Source: a virus. From it: DNA of 39,972 bases. The notes beneath the pieces are model-generated. The model ran no database searches and was not told the origin of the DNA. It saw nothing but the letters and a program-made list of their open reading frames with translations. The translations under genes and the position numbers were made by a program. Shown here piece after piece: positions 24,771 to 35,543 of this stretch. Positions within the stretch are counted from its first letter, which is position 1. Each line of letters opens with the position of its first letter. The stretch spans positions 1 through 39,972 of the IMG/VR virus record IMGVR_UViG_3300017743_000036. One strand, 5' to 3'.

Positions 24771-26276
24771 CTATGGATTTAAATCTATTTTGGGTGCTTT
24801 TATTGTAGTGTTACCCCCACTTTTAGTATCGATAGTACTTCCTGCACCTATTAATGCAGTACCACCAACAACAACTTGCCAATAACCATCCACTACAATA
24901 TTTAAATTTCCCTTTACGTGTATATTTTTGTCACCATGTACAATATCGAAATTACTACCAATAGTTCTTTCTACAATATCACCGTTTGGATGATATTCTT
25001 CAAACGAACCACTTCTATGATATGTGTGCAATCTTTCTGCGCCAGGCGTATCATCCATTTCAATCAAATGTCCTGAACGAGAATATGTTGCAGTATTATA
25101 TGGATACTGCGGCGCAGCTGGTGATTCTGGTTCTCCAAATAAATCATTTGATGTAACTGGAGTTTTATTCTCTACTGGTTCTGTTGTATCTAATTCTTGT
25201 TGAGTCGAATGTTGTGGTAAATCTGACAACTGGGCCCTAGACTGTCCAGTAGAACCTGATGTGCCGCTACGAGAACTACCAGATGATGCAGCCTGACTAG
25301 TTGTGGTTGTAGATGCACGATTTCTTTCACTTGCGGTTTCTCTCTGTACTAATTGATCCGTTGATGTTTCTGGAGATAATGCAGCTGGTGGTACATTACC
25401 ATCTGTACCACCAGAATTAAACATTGCAACTTCTTGTTGTCTACGTCTTGCAAGGCCAGGCAATACTTTACCAGATGCTTTATTGTATTGCAACATTTTA
25501 TTTGCAATAGTCGCATTGTCTCGCGTACCATTTGCAGTCAATGTATCTATACTGCCGGGCCCAAGGTTGTATGCAAAAGAAGTAAGTGCATCTACTTGTC
25601 TATCATTCCAATCATATCCATATTTATTTTTTCTTGCGATAACTCCAGCACGAAATTTTGCAATATTTACTTCTAGTCTACGGGTTGCTTCGGCTTCATC
25701 GATAACTTCGCCTTTGAAGTTTGCCTTAGTGCCATACCCAATAGATTCTTGTTTATGATCCCAGAATGACTTTGCAGAAAATCCTTCTTGTTGTTTCAAA
25801 AAGTCAGTTAACTCTGCACTTCCTGCATTAGATAGTTGTTCTGGTGTTGCGGTTGTATCACCTTGTGCATATCCCGCTGTACCTTCTGAAACAGAATCTG
25901 GGGATGCTGCACCACTAAGTACTTTAAGTGCGCCAGGCACCTGTGAACCCCTTCCAGAACGGTTTCCGTCTGGTGAAACTTGTTTGCCTGGAACTGTACC
26001 CCAAATAATTGGGTCTTGTGCATATTCTCCATCTCTAAAAAATCCTAAACACCAAGAACCTTCAATTACACCAGTTGGTGAAATTCCAATACCCCCAGCA
26101 GACGCACTATTCATTGGCATTATTGGACTTGCCCATGGTAATTTTTCTGTTTGCACGAATTCTTCATGATATCCAATAATACGAATTCTCACACGGCCCA
26201 ATTTTTCTGGGTCGTTAACGTCCTCGACAACGCCAGTCCACCACACAAAATTGTCTTTGCCCGCAAAATTTAACAT
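24771..26276 (-). CDS. 5: Baseplate hub/central spike with lysozyme domain, gp5
   Basis: 501-aa homologue of T4 gp5 (575 aa), the trimeric needle that pierces the outer membrane and digests peptidoglycan. Residues 10-98 are the OB-fold (FVWWTGVVEDVNDPEKLGRV, FFRDGEYAQDPIIWGTVPGK). Residues about 155-287 are a GH24 lysozyme with Glu164, Asp173 and a Ser at 178 (before IGYGT) in the place of the usual Thr. Residues about 288-385 are a Ser/Thr/Gln-rich linker where T4 gp5 is cleaved. The C-terminus (from SGHLIEMDD, near 395) is a VgrG-like beta-helix start with HRSGSFEEYHPNGDIVERT, then short repeats. It ends 9 bp before gp25. A second spike gene without lysozyme lies just upstream. Late promoter at 26297. 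Confidence 0.93.
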   Translation of the reverse strand: MLNFAGKDNFVWWTGVVEDVNDPEKLGRVRIRIIGYHEEFVQTEKLPWASPIMPMNSASAGGIGISPTGVIEGSWCLGFFRDGEYAQDPIIWGTVPGKQVSPDGNRSGRGSQVPGALKVLSGAASPDSVSEGTAGYAQGDTTATPEQLSNAGSAELTDFLKQQEGFSAKSFWDHKQESIGYGTKANFKGEVIDEAEATRRLEVNIAKFRAGVIARKNKYGYDWNDRQVDALTSFAYNLGPGSIDTLTANGTRDNATIANKMLQYNKASGKVLPGLARRRQQEVAMFNSGGTDGNVPPAALSPETSTDQLVQRETASERNRASTTTTSQAASSGSSRSGTSGSTGQSRAQLSDLPQHSTQQELDTTEPVENKTPVTSNDLFGEPESPAAPQYPYNTATYSRSGHLIEMDDTPGAERLHTYHRSGSFEEYHPNGDIVERTIGSNFDIVHGDKNIHVKGNLNIVVDGYWQVVVGGTALIGAGSTIDTKSGGNTTIKAPKIDLNP

Positions 26277-31835: not shown

Positions 31836-32573
31836 ATGTCTTTACCTATTATTAACCAACCAACATATGAGTTGACTTTACCATCAACAAATAAAACATT
31901 AAGATTTAGACCTTTTTTGGTAAAAGAAGAAAAAATTCTTTTAATGGCCCAAGAGGGGGGAGATATCGATGAACAGATTGAATCAGTAAAACAGATAGTA
32001 AGAAATTGTATTGTTTCTGATACTAATGTAGATACTATGTCAACATTTGATATTGAATATCTTTTTATTAAAATTCGTAGTAAATCTGTCGGAAATATTA
32101 TTAATCTAAATTATAAATTTGATAACTGCACAGCAGAGTTAAATGATGATAGTACTGTACCAAGAATTTGCGAAGTACCATTTGAATTAGACTTAGATGA
32201 AGTAGTAGTTAAAACCGAAGGAGAGCACAATAACATTATCAACATAACCGACGATGTTGGTGTTGTGATGAAATATCCAGATTTTAAATTATTAAGTAAA
32301 ATCGCATCAATGAATAATTATGATGAACTAATTGATGTTGTTGGTAATTGTGTAAAAATGATTTTTATGGGAGATGAAACATATGACCCCAGTGAATATA
32401 AATCAGAAGAATTGAGAAATTTCTTTGAGAGTTTGAGTCAGGAACAATTTCAAAAAGTTAGTAATTTTTTTGAAACAATGCCACAAACAATGGCAAATGT
32501 TCGTATACAATGTAAAAAATGCGGAAAGATGGAAAATATTGAATTAAAAGGTATATCGGATTTTTTCGAATAA
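31836..32573 (+). CDS. 26: gp26-like baseplate hub/tail assembly protein
   Basis: 245-aa protein of the T4 gp26/gp51 type (T4 gp26 208 aa, gp51 249 aa), needed to assemble the hub. N-terminus: YELTLPSTNKTLRFRPFLVK, EEKILLMAQEG and IKQIVRNCI-like segment (VKQIVRNCIV). The middle has DIEYLFIKIRSKSVGNII. The C-terminus has a CKKCGKMENIELKGISDFF segment, where the CxxC resembles half of a zinc ribbon; a second Cys pair is not evident (Cys107 and Cys118 are distant). The last codons are GAT TTT TTC GAA TAA, and the T run forms a slippery heptamer for a -1 frameshift. In many phages the gene just before the tape measure encodes a G/GT-type chaperone; this gene fits that place. Confidence 0.8.
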   Translation: MSLPIINQPTYELTLPSTNKTLRFRPFLVKEEKILLMAQEGGDIDEQIESVKQIVRNCIVSDTNVDTMSTFDIEYLFIKIRSKSVGNIINLNYKFDNCTAELNDDSTVPRICEVPFELDLDEVVVKTEGEHNNIINITDDVGVVMKYPDFKLLSKIASMNNYDELIDVVGNCVKMIFMGDETYDPSEYKSEELRNFFESLSQEQFQKVSNFFETMPQTMANVRIQCKKCGKMENIELKGISDFFE

Positions 32574-32743
32574 CTTTATATCATGAAAGTTTGGGGTCTC
32601 TCTACCAAACAAATTTTTCTCTTATGCAATATCATAAATATAGTTTAACAGAACTAGAAAATATGATTCCTTGGGAACGTGAAATATATGTATCGTTATT
32701 AGTTAACTATTTGCGTGAACAAGAACAGAAACAAAAAGGCTAG
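31836..32743 (+). CDS. Predicted -1 frameshift product gp26-T (302 aa)
   Basis: Reading the zero frame to 32567 and then the -1 frame from 32567 gives 244 + 58 residues ending at TAG 32741-32743. The extension runs RITLYHESLGSLYQTNFSLM then QYHKYSLTELENMIPWEREI then YVSLLVNYLREQEQKQKG. The -1 frame has no stop between the slip site and the internal ATG at 32624, and the part before that ATG already has the look of the extension (YQTNFSLMQYHKYSL), suggesting it is translated as a fusion. The layout equals the tail assembly chaperone pair of lambda (G and GT), where the short form is in excess and the T part binds the tape measure. No experiment supports it here. Confidence 0.6.
32546..32591 (+). 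promoter_or_regulatory. Programmed -1 frameshift signal
   Basis: Slippery heptamer T-TTT-TTC in the zero frame at 32561-32567. An AAAAGG Shine-Dalgarno-like stretch at 32546-32551 ends 9 nt upstream, a spacing that stimulates -1 shifts in bacteria (as in dnaX). Four nt downstream, AACTTT (32572-32577) can pair with AAAGTT (32586-32591) around an 8-nt loop. The zero-frame stop lies at the stem base. The stem is short and AT-rich. Confidence 0.55.
32624..32743 (+). CDS. Small ORF with WEREIY motif (T-part, possible independent start)
   Basis: 39-aa frame from ATG 32624 with tail-chaperone-like sequence YSLTELENMIPWEREIYVSL. No good ribosome site precedes the ATG (CAAATTTTTCTCTT), which favours expression as the -1 frameshift extension of gp26 over independent translation. 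Annotations of related phages may list such a small ORF separately, possibly as a gp51-type hub assembly protein. It ends 8 bp before the next gene. Confidence 0.5.
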   Translation: MQYHKYSLTELENMIPWEREIYVSLLVNYLREQEQKQKG

Positions 32744-32751
32744 AGGATAAT

Positions 32752-33000
32752 ATGGAAATGACAGAAAACAGAGATAATAAATATCAAAATTGGATCGATT
32801 TGGCAAAGGCCGTCGATTCGTGGAGAATCTTTCCAAGACTTTTTATTACGACATACATTTATTTACTGTATGCAGTAGTAAATTGGTTCATGACATTAGA
32901 CACACCAAATTTAGAACAATCTGGTTTGGTTAGTATCGTTGTCGGTGCCGGTGCTGCATGGTTTGGATTATATTTGGGTTCAAGTAAAAAGGCTGAATAA
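32752..33000 (+). CDS. Small two-helix membrane protein (holin-like candidate)
   Basis: 82-aa protein. A charged N-terminus (1-25) is followed by a hydrophobic helix (about 27-47, LFITTYIYLLYAVVNWFM), a short polar hairpin with Asp and Pro, and a second helix (about 57-77, GLVSIVVGAGAAWFGLYLG), then a short Lys/Glu tail. Size and two-helix hairpin fit class II-type holins, but proteins of this kind in marine phages are mostly listed as unknown. AGAGGA ribosome site before ATG. The stop overlaps the tape-measure start (TAATG), so the two are translationally coupled. That coupling might instead suggest a role in tail assembly or in inserting the tape measure during infection. Function unproven. 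Confidence 0.75.
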   Translation: MEMTENRDNKYQNWIDLAKAVDSWRIFPRLFITTYIYLLYAVVNWFMTLDTPNLEQSGLVSIVVGAGAAWFGLYLGSSKKAE

Positions 33001-35543
33001 TGGCAACTTTAGATTCCGTAATAGAAAATATTAATAGTTTTAATAATACAGGACAACTATCACAGGCACTAGAAAGTGTCTCTGATAGTTTAGAAACTGG
33101 TACTGGTGTCACTGCACTTGGTGAAATTTCACAACTCATCAAAACACAAGGTGATATGTCTGTTAAGGAATTAAAACGTTCAAGAGAAGATTTAGCATCT
33201 CTTAAAGATAAAGTATTAACATCTGATAGAATTGCAGAAAAAGATAGAAGTAATATTCTAACTCTTATTCAAAATCAAGAAGATGTAATTAATCAAAATA
33301 CTACATTATCAAAAAGAGCTGCAGAGTTTGTCCAAGAAAATATTAAAGAAAAAATACCAGACATTGCTGGTGTTGCAGCAGGGGTACTTTCGGAGAGTCC
33401 AGCGGCCGCTCTTGGTGTTAAGTTTATTGGTGATAAAATCCAAGAGAGTAGAGAAAGAAAAAGAAAAGAAAGAGAAGAAAGAGCTGCAAGATTGCAGAGA
33501 ATTGCAGACGAAGAAGATAGGCATAATAGAGAATTAGAAGTACTACGTGGACAAATAACTAACGAAGAAACTCTTTCTAAAGTCAATATGACTCAACAGG
33601 AAGCTGCAGATATTGCAAAACAAAATGGGATGGATTATCAAGATTATATCAATGACTTAAAAAATCAATTGATTGAACAATCCAAACTACAGAAACAACA
33701 AAAAGATGTTCAAGAAGCAAAATTAAAAGAAACTGAAGAACTAAAAGATAAATTTGGTTTTGATCAAAGTGGGGCCCCAGTAACAGAAAGTCCTATTGGG
33801 CCTGGCAATCCATCTACCCCATCAGAACCACTAGAAACATTATCTGATGGTGGTGGCGAACCATACCTTGCAGAAATTAGAGACTTGTTAAAATTTATGT
33901 CAAGTCCAGATACAGTGACTCCATTTGACATAGAAAATAGTAGAGAAGAACGTAGATTTCAAAAAGATTTGGCCGCAAAAGAAGAGGCAGTAATTGAACA
34001 ATTAGAAATCCAAACTGATTTATTAGAGAAAATTCATAAAGAACAAAATGATGACTTAAAAGAAAATATCATTGCAAACATGGCAGGCAGTATTGGTGGC
34101 AAATTAAGTGGTTTTGCCTCTATGATTGGTGGTAGTGTTGCAGGCGCATTAGGACTTGGTGGTCTTGGCGGTGCGTTAGGACTTGGCGGAAAGAGTGCGA
34201 AGGCAGGCAAAACTGCAGGCAGGGCTGCAAAGGCAGGAAAACTTGGTAGACTTGCAAAGATAGGTAAGATTGCAAAAACTGGTGGTATTGCGGCACTAGG
34301 TGCAACTGCAGCAAGTGCATTAGTTGGTGGTGCTACAAAACTAGGAAAAACTGTAGTTGGTGCTGGTAGTGCATTAATGGGGGGTGTTAAAAGAGTTGCT
34401 GGTTCTGTTGGAGAGATGGCAGGAAGGGCGACAACCAATCTTGGTGAATCTATAGGTAAGGTTGCATCATCTGCAACTGGTATTGCAAAAGCAACTCCAG
34501 AACCAAAAGCACTCACGAATGTAGCAGATGCAATTACTAAAACTGGGCCTGATATGATTGATGGTAAAATTGCATCCCCCAAAGTTACACCAACCCCCAA
34601 AGTTTCTACTCCACCAAAACTACCAAAGGCCGCCGGTGCGTTAGATACTGCGAAAGGTGCATTAAAAAATGTAACTGCACCAGTTGTTAAACTAAAGGAT
34701 GGTGCGGCCAAATCAGTTGCTGGTGCATTAGATAAAACCATTGCAAAAAAGATTCTTGCATCAAAAGGTGCAAAGTTACTTGCAAAGGCAATCCCAGGCA
34801 TAGGTATGGCCGCAGGAGGATTATTTGCACTCAACTCATTATTTAAAGGTGACTTTGTTGGTGCAGCTGCGGAAGCGGGAGGAATATTCCTTCCATCTGT
34901 TGCAGGGGCCCCATTAGATGCAGGGATTATGGCAAGAGAAACATATAATCAAATGTTTGGTACAGAAGATAATCCATTTCCACTCGAAGGAGATATGATT
35001 AAACAACCTGATGTTGCAAAAAGTCGTATGGGTCAACTAAAGGATATGGCATTAGAGGTTATTGGAGTTGGACAGGAAGAACTAGATAAACAAGGAAAAA
35101 TACAGGCATTGCAAAAAGAAATAACTGATGCCGAAGATAGAATTACAAGGTCTACTGGCGGAGAGAATGTATATTATGGTAGAGATTCCAAAGGAATTGA
35201 AAAAGACCAAGCTTCTATTGCTGCAAAACAGGCAGAAATTAATTCTTTATCAGTCTCATCTGGTGAAACATCAACATCCCCAGACTTGAGTGGTGGTTCT
35301 GCAACTGAACAAATGAGTATGAATTCTGAAAGAGCCAATTTAAACCAAGAAATGAACAACATGATGCGACAAGAGGCGATAACTAGAAATACACCATCCA
35401 ATACTGGTGGAACCGCAAATGTTGTTAATGCGCCTCAACAAAATATCAATGCATCAAAGACAACAATTGTACAACAACCGCACGTTAGAAATCCAGACCC
35501 ATCAATTGGGTTTGCTCAACGTGGATTACAAGGAGCAGTATAA
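33000..35543 (+). CDS. 29: Tape-measure / gp29-like tail protein
   Basis: 847-aa protein next to the chaperone-like gp26, the standard place of a tape measure; T4 gp29 (590 aa) sets tail length inside the tube. Residues 1-115 are helical; 148-182 and 220-250 are highly charged coiled coil (RERKRKEREERAARLQR; KLQKQQKDVQEAKLKETEEL). A Pro-rich linker follows (261-277). Residues about 360-480 are Gly/Ala/Lys-rich (GALGLGGLGGALGLGG), and about 600-655 hydrophobic (IPGIGMAAGGLFALNSLF), typical of tape-measure segments that may enter the membrane. The C-terminal 150 residues are polar. At about 0.15 nm per residue the length would suggest a tail of about 125 nm. No recognisable peptidase motif. Sequence homology to gp29 is not evident; the role is inferred. 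Confidence 0.65.
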   Translation: MATLDSVIENINSFNNTGQLSQALESVSDSLETGTGVTALGEISQLIKTQGDMSVKELKRSREDLASLKDKVLTSDRIAEKDRSNILTLIQNQEDVINQNTTLSKRAAEFVQENIKEKIPDIAGVAAGVLSESPAAALGVKFIGDKIQESRERKRKEREERAARLQRIADEEDRHNRELEVLRGQITNEETLSKVNMTQQEAADIAKQNGMDYQDYINDLKNQLIEQSKLQKQQKDVQEAKLKETEELKDKFGFDQSGAPVTESPIGPGNPSTPSEPLETLSDGGGEPYLAEIRDLLKFMSSPDTVTPFDIENSREERRFQKDLAAKEEAVIEQLEIQTDLLEKIHKEQNDDLKENIIANMAGSIGGKLSGFASMIGGSVAGALGLGGLGGALGLGGKSAKAGKTAGRAAKAGKLGRLAKIGKIAKTGGIAALGATAASALVGGATKLGKTVVGAGSALMGGVKRVAGSVGEMAGRATTNLGESIGKVASSATGIAKATPEPKALTNVADAITKTGPDMIDGKIASPKVTPTPKVSTPPKLPKAAGALDTAKGALKNVTAPVVKLKDGAAKSVAGALDKTIAKKILASKGAKLLAKAIPGIGMAAGGLFALNSLFKGDFVGAAAEAGGIFLPSVAGAPLDAGIMARETYNQMFGTEDNPFPLEGDMIKQPDVAKSRMGQLKDMALEVIGVGQEELDKQGKIQALQKEITDAEDRITRSTGGENVYYGRDSKGIEKDQASIAAKQAEINSLSVSSGETSTSPDLSGGSATEQMSMNSERANLNQEMNNMMRQEAITRNTPSNTGGTANVVNAPQQNINASKTTIVQQPHVRNPDPSIGFAQRGLQGAV

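Follow-up and report, generated by a model that had tools for sequence, protein, structure and literature searches.

A T4-type gp26 gene of an uncultured phage probably encodes short and long tail assembly chaperones through -1 frameshifting at T TTT TTC

Is the gp26 gene of this virus read as one protein or as two? The DNA that we analyzed, here called the window, is the whole of the 39,972-base IMG/VR virus record IMGVR_UViG_3300017743_000036. At 31836..32573 on the plus strand it carries a 245-aa gene that matches Pfam family PF12322 (T4_baseplate, E 8.7e-58) and phrog_150 (E 2.6e-60), and the nearest named gp26 match is that of Pelagibacter phage HTVC008M (41.5% identity). These profiles, together with the AlphaFold model described below, point to a baseplate hub/tail assembly chaperone in its short form (TAC-N). 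An earlier note on this DNA had proposed a zero-frame slippery heptamer near the end of gp26, with a single GAA codon before the stop, and a -1 frame open for 58 codons. Indeed, T TTT TTC lies at 32561..32567 (plus strand) in frame 0 of gp26 near its 3' end, where the codons read GAT TTT TTC GAA TAA and the stop occupies 32571-32573. The -1 frame (32567..32743, plus strand) runs from CGA at 32567 through 58 open codons to TAG at 32741-32743, and the nearest -1 stop upstream starts 31 nt ahead of the gp26 stop.

The peptide encoded in the -1 frame, previously described as coherent, proved to be gp51: it matches phrog_634, "baseplate hub assembly catalyst" (gp51), with an E-value of 9.7e-27. A second match, to the gp26 profile phrog_150, covers positions 232-277 at the C-terminal end of that profile (E 4.4e-06), and tblastn searches with the peptide gave matches in 559 phage records, in a few of which the slip site was read. 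The three profiles PF12322, phrog_150 and phrog_634 place the window gene, as judged by homology, in the T4 gp26/gp51 family, and we refer to the -1 extension as the putative gp51 domain (TAC-C), a reading based on phrog_634, tblastn and the substitution patterns given below. As a control for chance occurrence, we surveyed the 25 main open reading frames (ORFs) of the window, which comprise 12,042 codons and 111 in-frame XXXYYYZ heptamers. Among these 25, only gp26 combined a T6 heptamer inside the overlap with a long unannotated -1 extension, which in this survey reached 56 codons past the stop. The ORF at 24771-26276 has a TTTAAAT heptamer in its overlap with a -1 extension of just 12 codons, and the two -1 extensions that are longer (405 and 847 aa) each correspond to the gene that follows.

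We consider it very probable, on the comparative evidence that follows, that the window gp26 is read two ways through -1 ribosomal frameshifting at T TTT TTC, giving a short and a long chaperone. Most ribosomes would terminate at the gp26 stop and release the 245-aa short form, while a minority would slip by -1 on the heptamer, bypass the stop and fuse gp26 to the 58-aa gp51 domain. If the two forms act like lambda gpG and gpGT, the short one may coat the tape measure protein, and the long one may recruit tail tube or hub components through its gp51 domain. Comparison of homologs supports the heptamer, the switch of frame, selection on the -1 frame and the homology of the -1 peptide to gp51; we infer the slippage itself and its rate, along with binding to the tape measure and the division of labor between the two forms.

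To follow the heptamer across the family, we assembled 165 sequences: the best 80 IMG/VR loci by gp26, the best 80 by the -1 peptide, four named phages (HTVC008M, P-SSM4, KVP40 and phiM19) and the window. One locus (L039) was left out as a contig end cuts its gp26, which left 164 analyzable sequences; another (L025), whose tail is cut by a contig end, was counted for the heptamer and partial tail and excluded from the fused set. Some contigs were present in both locus sets, and the 137 distinct fused sequences fell into 97 clusters at 80% amino acid identity. The earlier note had suggested aligning homologs, and among the matches listed the outcome was uniform: T TTT TT(C/T/A) stood in frame 0 of gp26 in 164/164 analyzable sequences (last base C in 118, T in 45 and A in 1), and a homolog of the -1 peptide followed in the open -1 frame in 164/164 (partial for L025). 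Homologs without the heptamer or with stops in the -1 frame, which the note had named as evidence against a frameshift, were absent from these 164 listed sequences. Because 80 of the 160 IMG/VR loci had been found through the -1 peptide itself, the cleaner figure comes from the loci of the gp26 search alone that have a gp26 stop: 79/79 among the matches listed carried both heptamer and -1 frame. The distance from heptamer to stop ranged from 0 to 8 sense codons and was one codon in 153 of the 164 listed sequences.

Codon choice at the site was equally uniform. Among the 97 clusters of listed matches, the last codon of the slip site was TTC in 76, TTT in 20 and TTA in 1. A codon ending in T preceded the slip in 97/97 of these clusters, with a mean expectation from each gene's own codons of 0.60, and the first Phe codon was TTT in 97/97, with a mean expectation of 0.70; both comparisons take the clusters as independent, though they are not.

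Substitution patterns indicated that the heptamer marks the point where coding constraint leaves frame 0 for frame -1. We calculated pN/pS over the 97 clusters of listed loci, restricting the calculation to sequence pairs with differences at no more than 45% of the sites of the stretch concerned. Upstream of the heptamer, pN/pS was lower in frame 0 (0.47) than in frame -1 (2.51). The relation was reversed beyond it, with values of 0.36 (frame -1) against 0.97 (frame 0) for codons 3-10 after the slip, and of 0.20 and 0.95, respectively, for the core at codons 20-44. Possible starts in the -1 frame varied among the 97 clusters of listed matches: 16 had one before the slip, 17 in the first four post-slip codons and 22, the window among them, in the next six, and 42 began with 11 or more post-slip codons free of ATG, GTG and TTG. 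Taken together, these 42 clusters had a pN/pS of 0.33 in frame -1 and 1.02 in frame 0. The earlier note had judged the -1 part ahead of the start to be protein-like, and selection bears this out in the 42 of 97 listed clusters where it can be tested, a group outside which the window falls. The note had further described ATG 32624 as the only ATG of the -1 frame and as lacking a ribosome site. The second point stands by eye, as a pyrimidine-rich tract without a Shine-Dalgarno match lies ahead of this codon; yet other starts are possible, since TTG 32591 precedes it, after 8 codons of the -1 frame.

Upstream of the slip site, AAAAGG at 32546..32551 (plus strand) had been proposed as a stimulator. 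Its position, 9 nt upstream of the heptamer, agrees with this, and the Shine-Dalgarno-like element is conserved in the family as a class, but it is weak in the window, where the duplex with the anti-Shine-Dalgarno sequence is worth about -3.9 kcal/mol. Family hybridization energy peaks 7-9 nt upstream of the heptamer, with a mean best value of -6.06 kcal/mol over the 97 cluster representatives of listed matches, compared with -4.83 for synonymous shuffles and -1.27 for other in-frame places of the same genes; none of 100 shuffle sets was as strong as the real signal. As the shuffles already reach -4.83, the protein motif accounts for much of the signal, and a part goes beyond it. The dnaX frameshift shares this arrangement of an internal Shine-Dalgarno-like stimulator ahead of the slip site. 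We also considered the element as a start signal for gp51 and rejected this: between 12 nt ahead of the heptamer start and 5 nt past it, 0/97 clusters of listed matches had an ATG, GTG or TTG in the -1 frame, so that the element is unlike a ribosome site for gp51. The same range held an ATT, ATC, ATA or CTG in 16/97 listed clusters.

Downstream structure was less informative. The hairpin that the earlier note had proposed as a second stimulator (32572..32591, plus strand; 6 bp with an 8-nt loop) is placed as claimed, 4 nt downstream of the heptamer, but it is weak (-2.0 kcal/mol alone) and is displaced in the minimum-energy fold of a longer stretch. That fold, of 32568-32620, has an energy of -6.9 kcal/mol and contains a putative alternative hairpin, GTTTGG/CCAAAC, at 32589..32610 (plus strand), about 21 nt downstream of the heptamer. 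In the 97 representatives of listed matches, folding energy dipped 0-8 nt past the heptamer, with mean z of -0.83 to -1.00 and 21-28% of sequences below -2, against 6% below -2 at control offsets of -60, +30 and +45; a second dip occurred at +20 (mean z -0.70). We rejected downstream structure as a general stimulator, the dip being modest and too weak for a claim of a conserved element.

The alternative that survives best, although we regard it as improbable, is that gp51 is a separate small protein whose translation is coupled to gp26 termination and begins in the -1 frame at TTG 32591, ATG 32624 or a non-standard codon. GenBank records of P-SSM4, KVP40, phiM19 and S-PM2 do annotate a separate gp51, some homologs have an ATG at or just past the gp26 stop, and the window itself offers a TTG after 8 codons. 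A separately started gp51 is nonetheless hard to reconcile with the 42 of 97 listed clusters, because their -1 codons are constrained (pN/pS 0.33, as above) ahead of any standard start. In SRB7757 the -1 ORF contains no ATG, GTG or TTG at all. The absence of a standard start near the heptamer from all 97 listed clusters, with non-standard codons there in 16, argues the same way, as do the preservation of the heptamer at synonymous positions and the finding, described below, that T4 gp51 is a full fusion. Since starts do occur before or soon after the slip in some clusters, some phages may make additional free gp51. That the long form is the short form plus a C-terminal domain is what the comparison indicates, both from the 42 of 97 listed clusters without a start, the window lying outside them, and from the natural fusion in four T4-type phages.

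A fusion could also arise if RNA polymerase slipped on the T run and produced a mixed population of mRNAs, and runs of seven or eight T in some homologs would suit such slippage. We think this very improbable: 76 of the 97 clusters of listed matches read TTTTTTC, the window likewise has six T followed by C, a run of six T is short for polymerase slippage, and the conserved Shine-Dalgarno-like element upstream would act on translation and not on transcription. Finally, a sequencing error or a decayed gene might have split one fused ORF, as the intact fused paralog of T4-type phages could suggest, but the same break at the same heptamer in 164/164 listed sequences, with purifying selection on both sides, leaves this a negligible chance.

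We also compared 21 named phage regions, 17 of them in addition to HTVC008M, P-SSM4, KVP40 and phiM19. The heptamer and the -1 gp51 frame were present in 13/21, namely these four and Ah1, SRB7757, TCU-VP04-AIR2, RHph_I1_18, S-CREM2, MA01, P-SSM2, Mosig and S-PM2. A similar -1 frame without the heptamer was found in 4/21 (Dickeya RC-2014, Salmonella pSK20 and Erwinia Bue1, all Ackermannviridae, and Vibrio K413), and neither feature in the other 4/21 (T4, Enterobacter Entb_43, Klebsiella KR1 and one Acinetobacter phage). These last four have a 249-252-aa gp51 next to gp26 on the opposite strand. We searched eight sequences with a profile built from the frameshifted fusions: it matched the four gp51 proteins with E-values of 7e-18 to 3e-13, in alignments that continue across the junction into the gp51 tail, and the four gp26 proteins as well, minus the tail. 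Pfam PF12322 likewise includes T4 gp26, T4 gp51 and Entb_43 gp51. By sequence homology, then, T4-type gp51 is to be read as a full-length paralog of gp26, the short and long forms being encoded as two genes, and the heptamer would be absent from these four phages because a separate long gene is present. A T4 relative with 58% gp26 identity (L204) has GAG TTT TTT AAA near position 2603, close to the end of gp26, which may be the remnant of a slip site. The T4 record (L165) annotates gp26', the product of an internal in-frame start, at 2546-2833.

The heptamer-free loci of the Ackermannviridae type were compared as a set of 21 (L171, L172, L179 and L182-L199; 13 distinct), made up of the three named phages together with 18 IMG/VR loci that a search with one of these phages retrieved. 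In 21/21 the gp26 end reads (GAR or CAG) ATT TTC ATY TAA, and in 21/21 the -1 frame continues as a conserved peptide. No -1 ATG, GTG or TTG precedes a GTG at +32 in 16/21; in the rest, either an ATG lies over the stop (4/21, Limestonevirus type) or a TTG stands at +17 (Erwinia phage Bue1). Between the stop and +31, substitutions numbered 48, 46 and 170 on -1 codon positions 1, 2 and 3, respectively. In the shortest overlaps a shift would be possible only at ATT, TTC, ATT or the stop, and good -1 re-pairing of a tRNA would be expected only at U-UUC. ATT TTC may therefore serve as a non-canonical -1 slip site in this group. We considered an ATT-to-ATT hop across the stop and dropped it by eye, since the Limestonevirus-type sequences have ATG at the landing place. 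In Vibrio phage K413 (L168, 2200-2225), gp26 ends CTT TTC AAG TAA and is followed by a similar-looking -1 frame; K352 is a second Vibrio record of this kind. Scans of IMG/VR with the gp26 proteins of K413 and of SRB7757 gave no relatives; the one record read for the CTT TTC site is thus K413.

These comparisons raise the possibility, to which we give slightly less than even credence, that the gp26 family reaches its two-product output by three routes. In the first, T TTT TTY would direct the shift in most sequences examined, often with an internal Shine-Dalgarno-like stimulator; the heptamer is held by marine Kyanoviridae-type, Schizotequatrovirus, Cinqassovirus and Emdodecavirus phages. In the second, a separate long paralog would take over, as in the four T4-type phages examined. 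In the third, (A/G)ATT TTC or CTT TTC would serve in Ackermannviridae-type phages and one Vibrio phage, with the Phe tRNA alone re-pairing well in the -1 frame. If true, this last route adds a heptamer-free, single-tRNA slip to the frameshifts of tail chaperones.

The earlier note had likened the pair to G and GT, and structure prediction lends this analogy moderate support. An AlphaFold model of gp26 built with 42 aligned gp26 proteins (pLDDT 91.5, pTM 0.85) gave four leading PDB matches in VIA-align, 3fgx (Z 8.2), 2ob9 (Z 7.7), 3klu (Z 7.2) and 5ir0 (Z 5.3), the next reaching 2.8; with this aligner top scores of Z 7 to 8 are common. Among them, 2ob9 is the HK97 tail assembly chaperone and aligned to N-terminal residues 1-85, and we take 3fgx (RBSTP2171) and 3klu (YqbN) to be chaperone relatives. 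The top three alignments covered 83-85 residues at 5-11% identity, and gp26 has about 150 residues more than these proteins. Foldseek E-values for 2ob9 and 3fgx against the model were not significant (2.7-3.0). A search of the PDB with the gp26 sequence returned no match at E up to 1, and a profile search gave weak matches only, led by an unrelated protein at E 0.071. The predicted viral structures that matched best were gp26-type baseplate hub proteins, which are uninformative on the chaperone question. Because the HK97 chaperone was the match expected beforehand, we take the fold result as moderate support for a predicted chaperone fold in about residues 1-91. The fourth match, 5ir0, is ORF19 of a Vibrio cholerae PICI-like element and matches the gp26 chaperone domain; a satellite protein that shares the fold of a tail chaperone might interfere with tail assembly of the helper.

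A tail tube gene lies upstream of gp26, and downstream an 847-aa ORF (33000..35543, plus strand) is presumed, from its position and size, to be the tape measure gene. It had no PHROG match and no accepted Pfam match, and only a 13% stretch of it matches four Methylophilales phage records (Melnitz proteins); in HTVC008M a gene annotated as putative tail tape measure occupies the equivalent place. Between the gp51 tail and this ORF, an 82-aa ORF (32752..33000, plus strand) matches phrog_10198 (E 7.4e-21), a family of unknown function, has hydrophobic stretches and could be a small membrane or holin-like protein. The earlier claim that gp26 lies just ahead of the presumed tape measure gene thus holds for its being upstream but not for direct adjacency. 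Like lambda gpG/gpGT, the window locus combines a probable -1 frameshift near the end of a chaperone gene, giving short and long forms, with a place upstream of the tape measure gene (presumed in the window); unlike lambda, it has the 82-aa gene in between. The lambda slip site differs from that of the window, and the tail frameshift of double-stranded DNA phages was reportedly treated by Xu, Hendrix and Duda in 2004.

Genes 26 and 51 are said to be the ones that Vladimirov and colleagues treated. Their paper on T4-like tail assembly chaperones (Vladimirov, Gautam and Davidson, 2022, Virology 566:9-15) is known to us through passages of two papers that cite it (PMC10885494, PMC12846349), and these answer in the affirmative the earlier doubt whether a frameshift had been described for T4-type gp26. 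Poly-T slippery sites are known from T4-like TAC-N genes, according to passages of PMC12846349, and some T4-like phages have one short and one long fused gene without frameshifting, according to passages of PMC10885494. By its title and these citing passages, the 2022 paper concerns the same genes, here found in an uncultured relative, so that mechanism and gene family appear to be already known and the window is a well supported new example. In Pseudomonas phage Adele and Vandenendeviridae, as presented in passages of PMC12846349, the TAC locus is also read as TAC-N/TAC-NC and, like that of the window, keeps the -1 frame past a poly-T with the -1 part unannotated; unlike the window, it has the invariant motif GTTTTT and belongs to another phage family. 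A 2010 review of the T4 tail counts gp26 and gp51 among the hub assembly chaperones and contains, in the portion available, no word beginning "frameshift" (PMC3004832). A 2016 review of frameshifting describes the lambda gpG/gpGT case, and its first 300,000 of 475,107 characters contain none of gp26, gp51 or baseplate (PMC5009743). Titles and abstract openings on gp26/gp51 and on tail chaperone frameshifts, a scope outside which Vladimirov et al. (2022) falls, included neither the Shine-Dalgarno-like element nor the Ackermannviridae-type site, and these two, the stimulator and the variant site, are the parts worth following.

Current annotations show gp26 and a fragmentary gp51 as separate genes, or leave gp51 out, where there is most likely one recoded gene; recognizing this would put right both the number of genes and the N-terminus of gp51 in many T4-like phages. 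The slippery site together with the internal Shine-Dalgarno-like sequence may determine the proportion of short to long chaperone, and the frameshift reading may explain why T4 has both gp26 and gp51.
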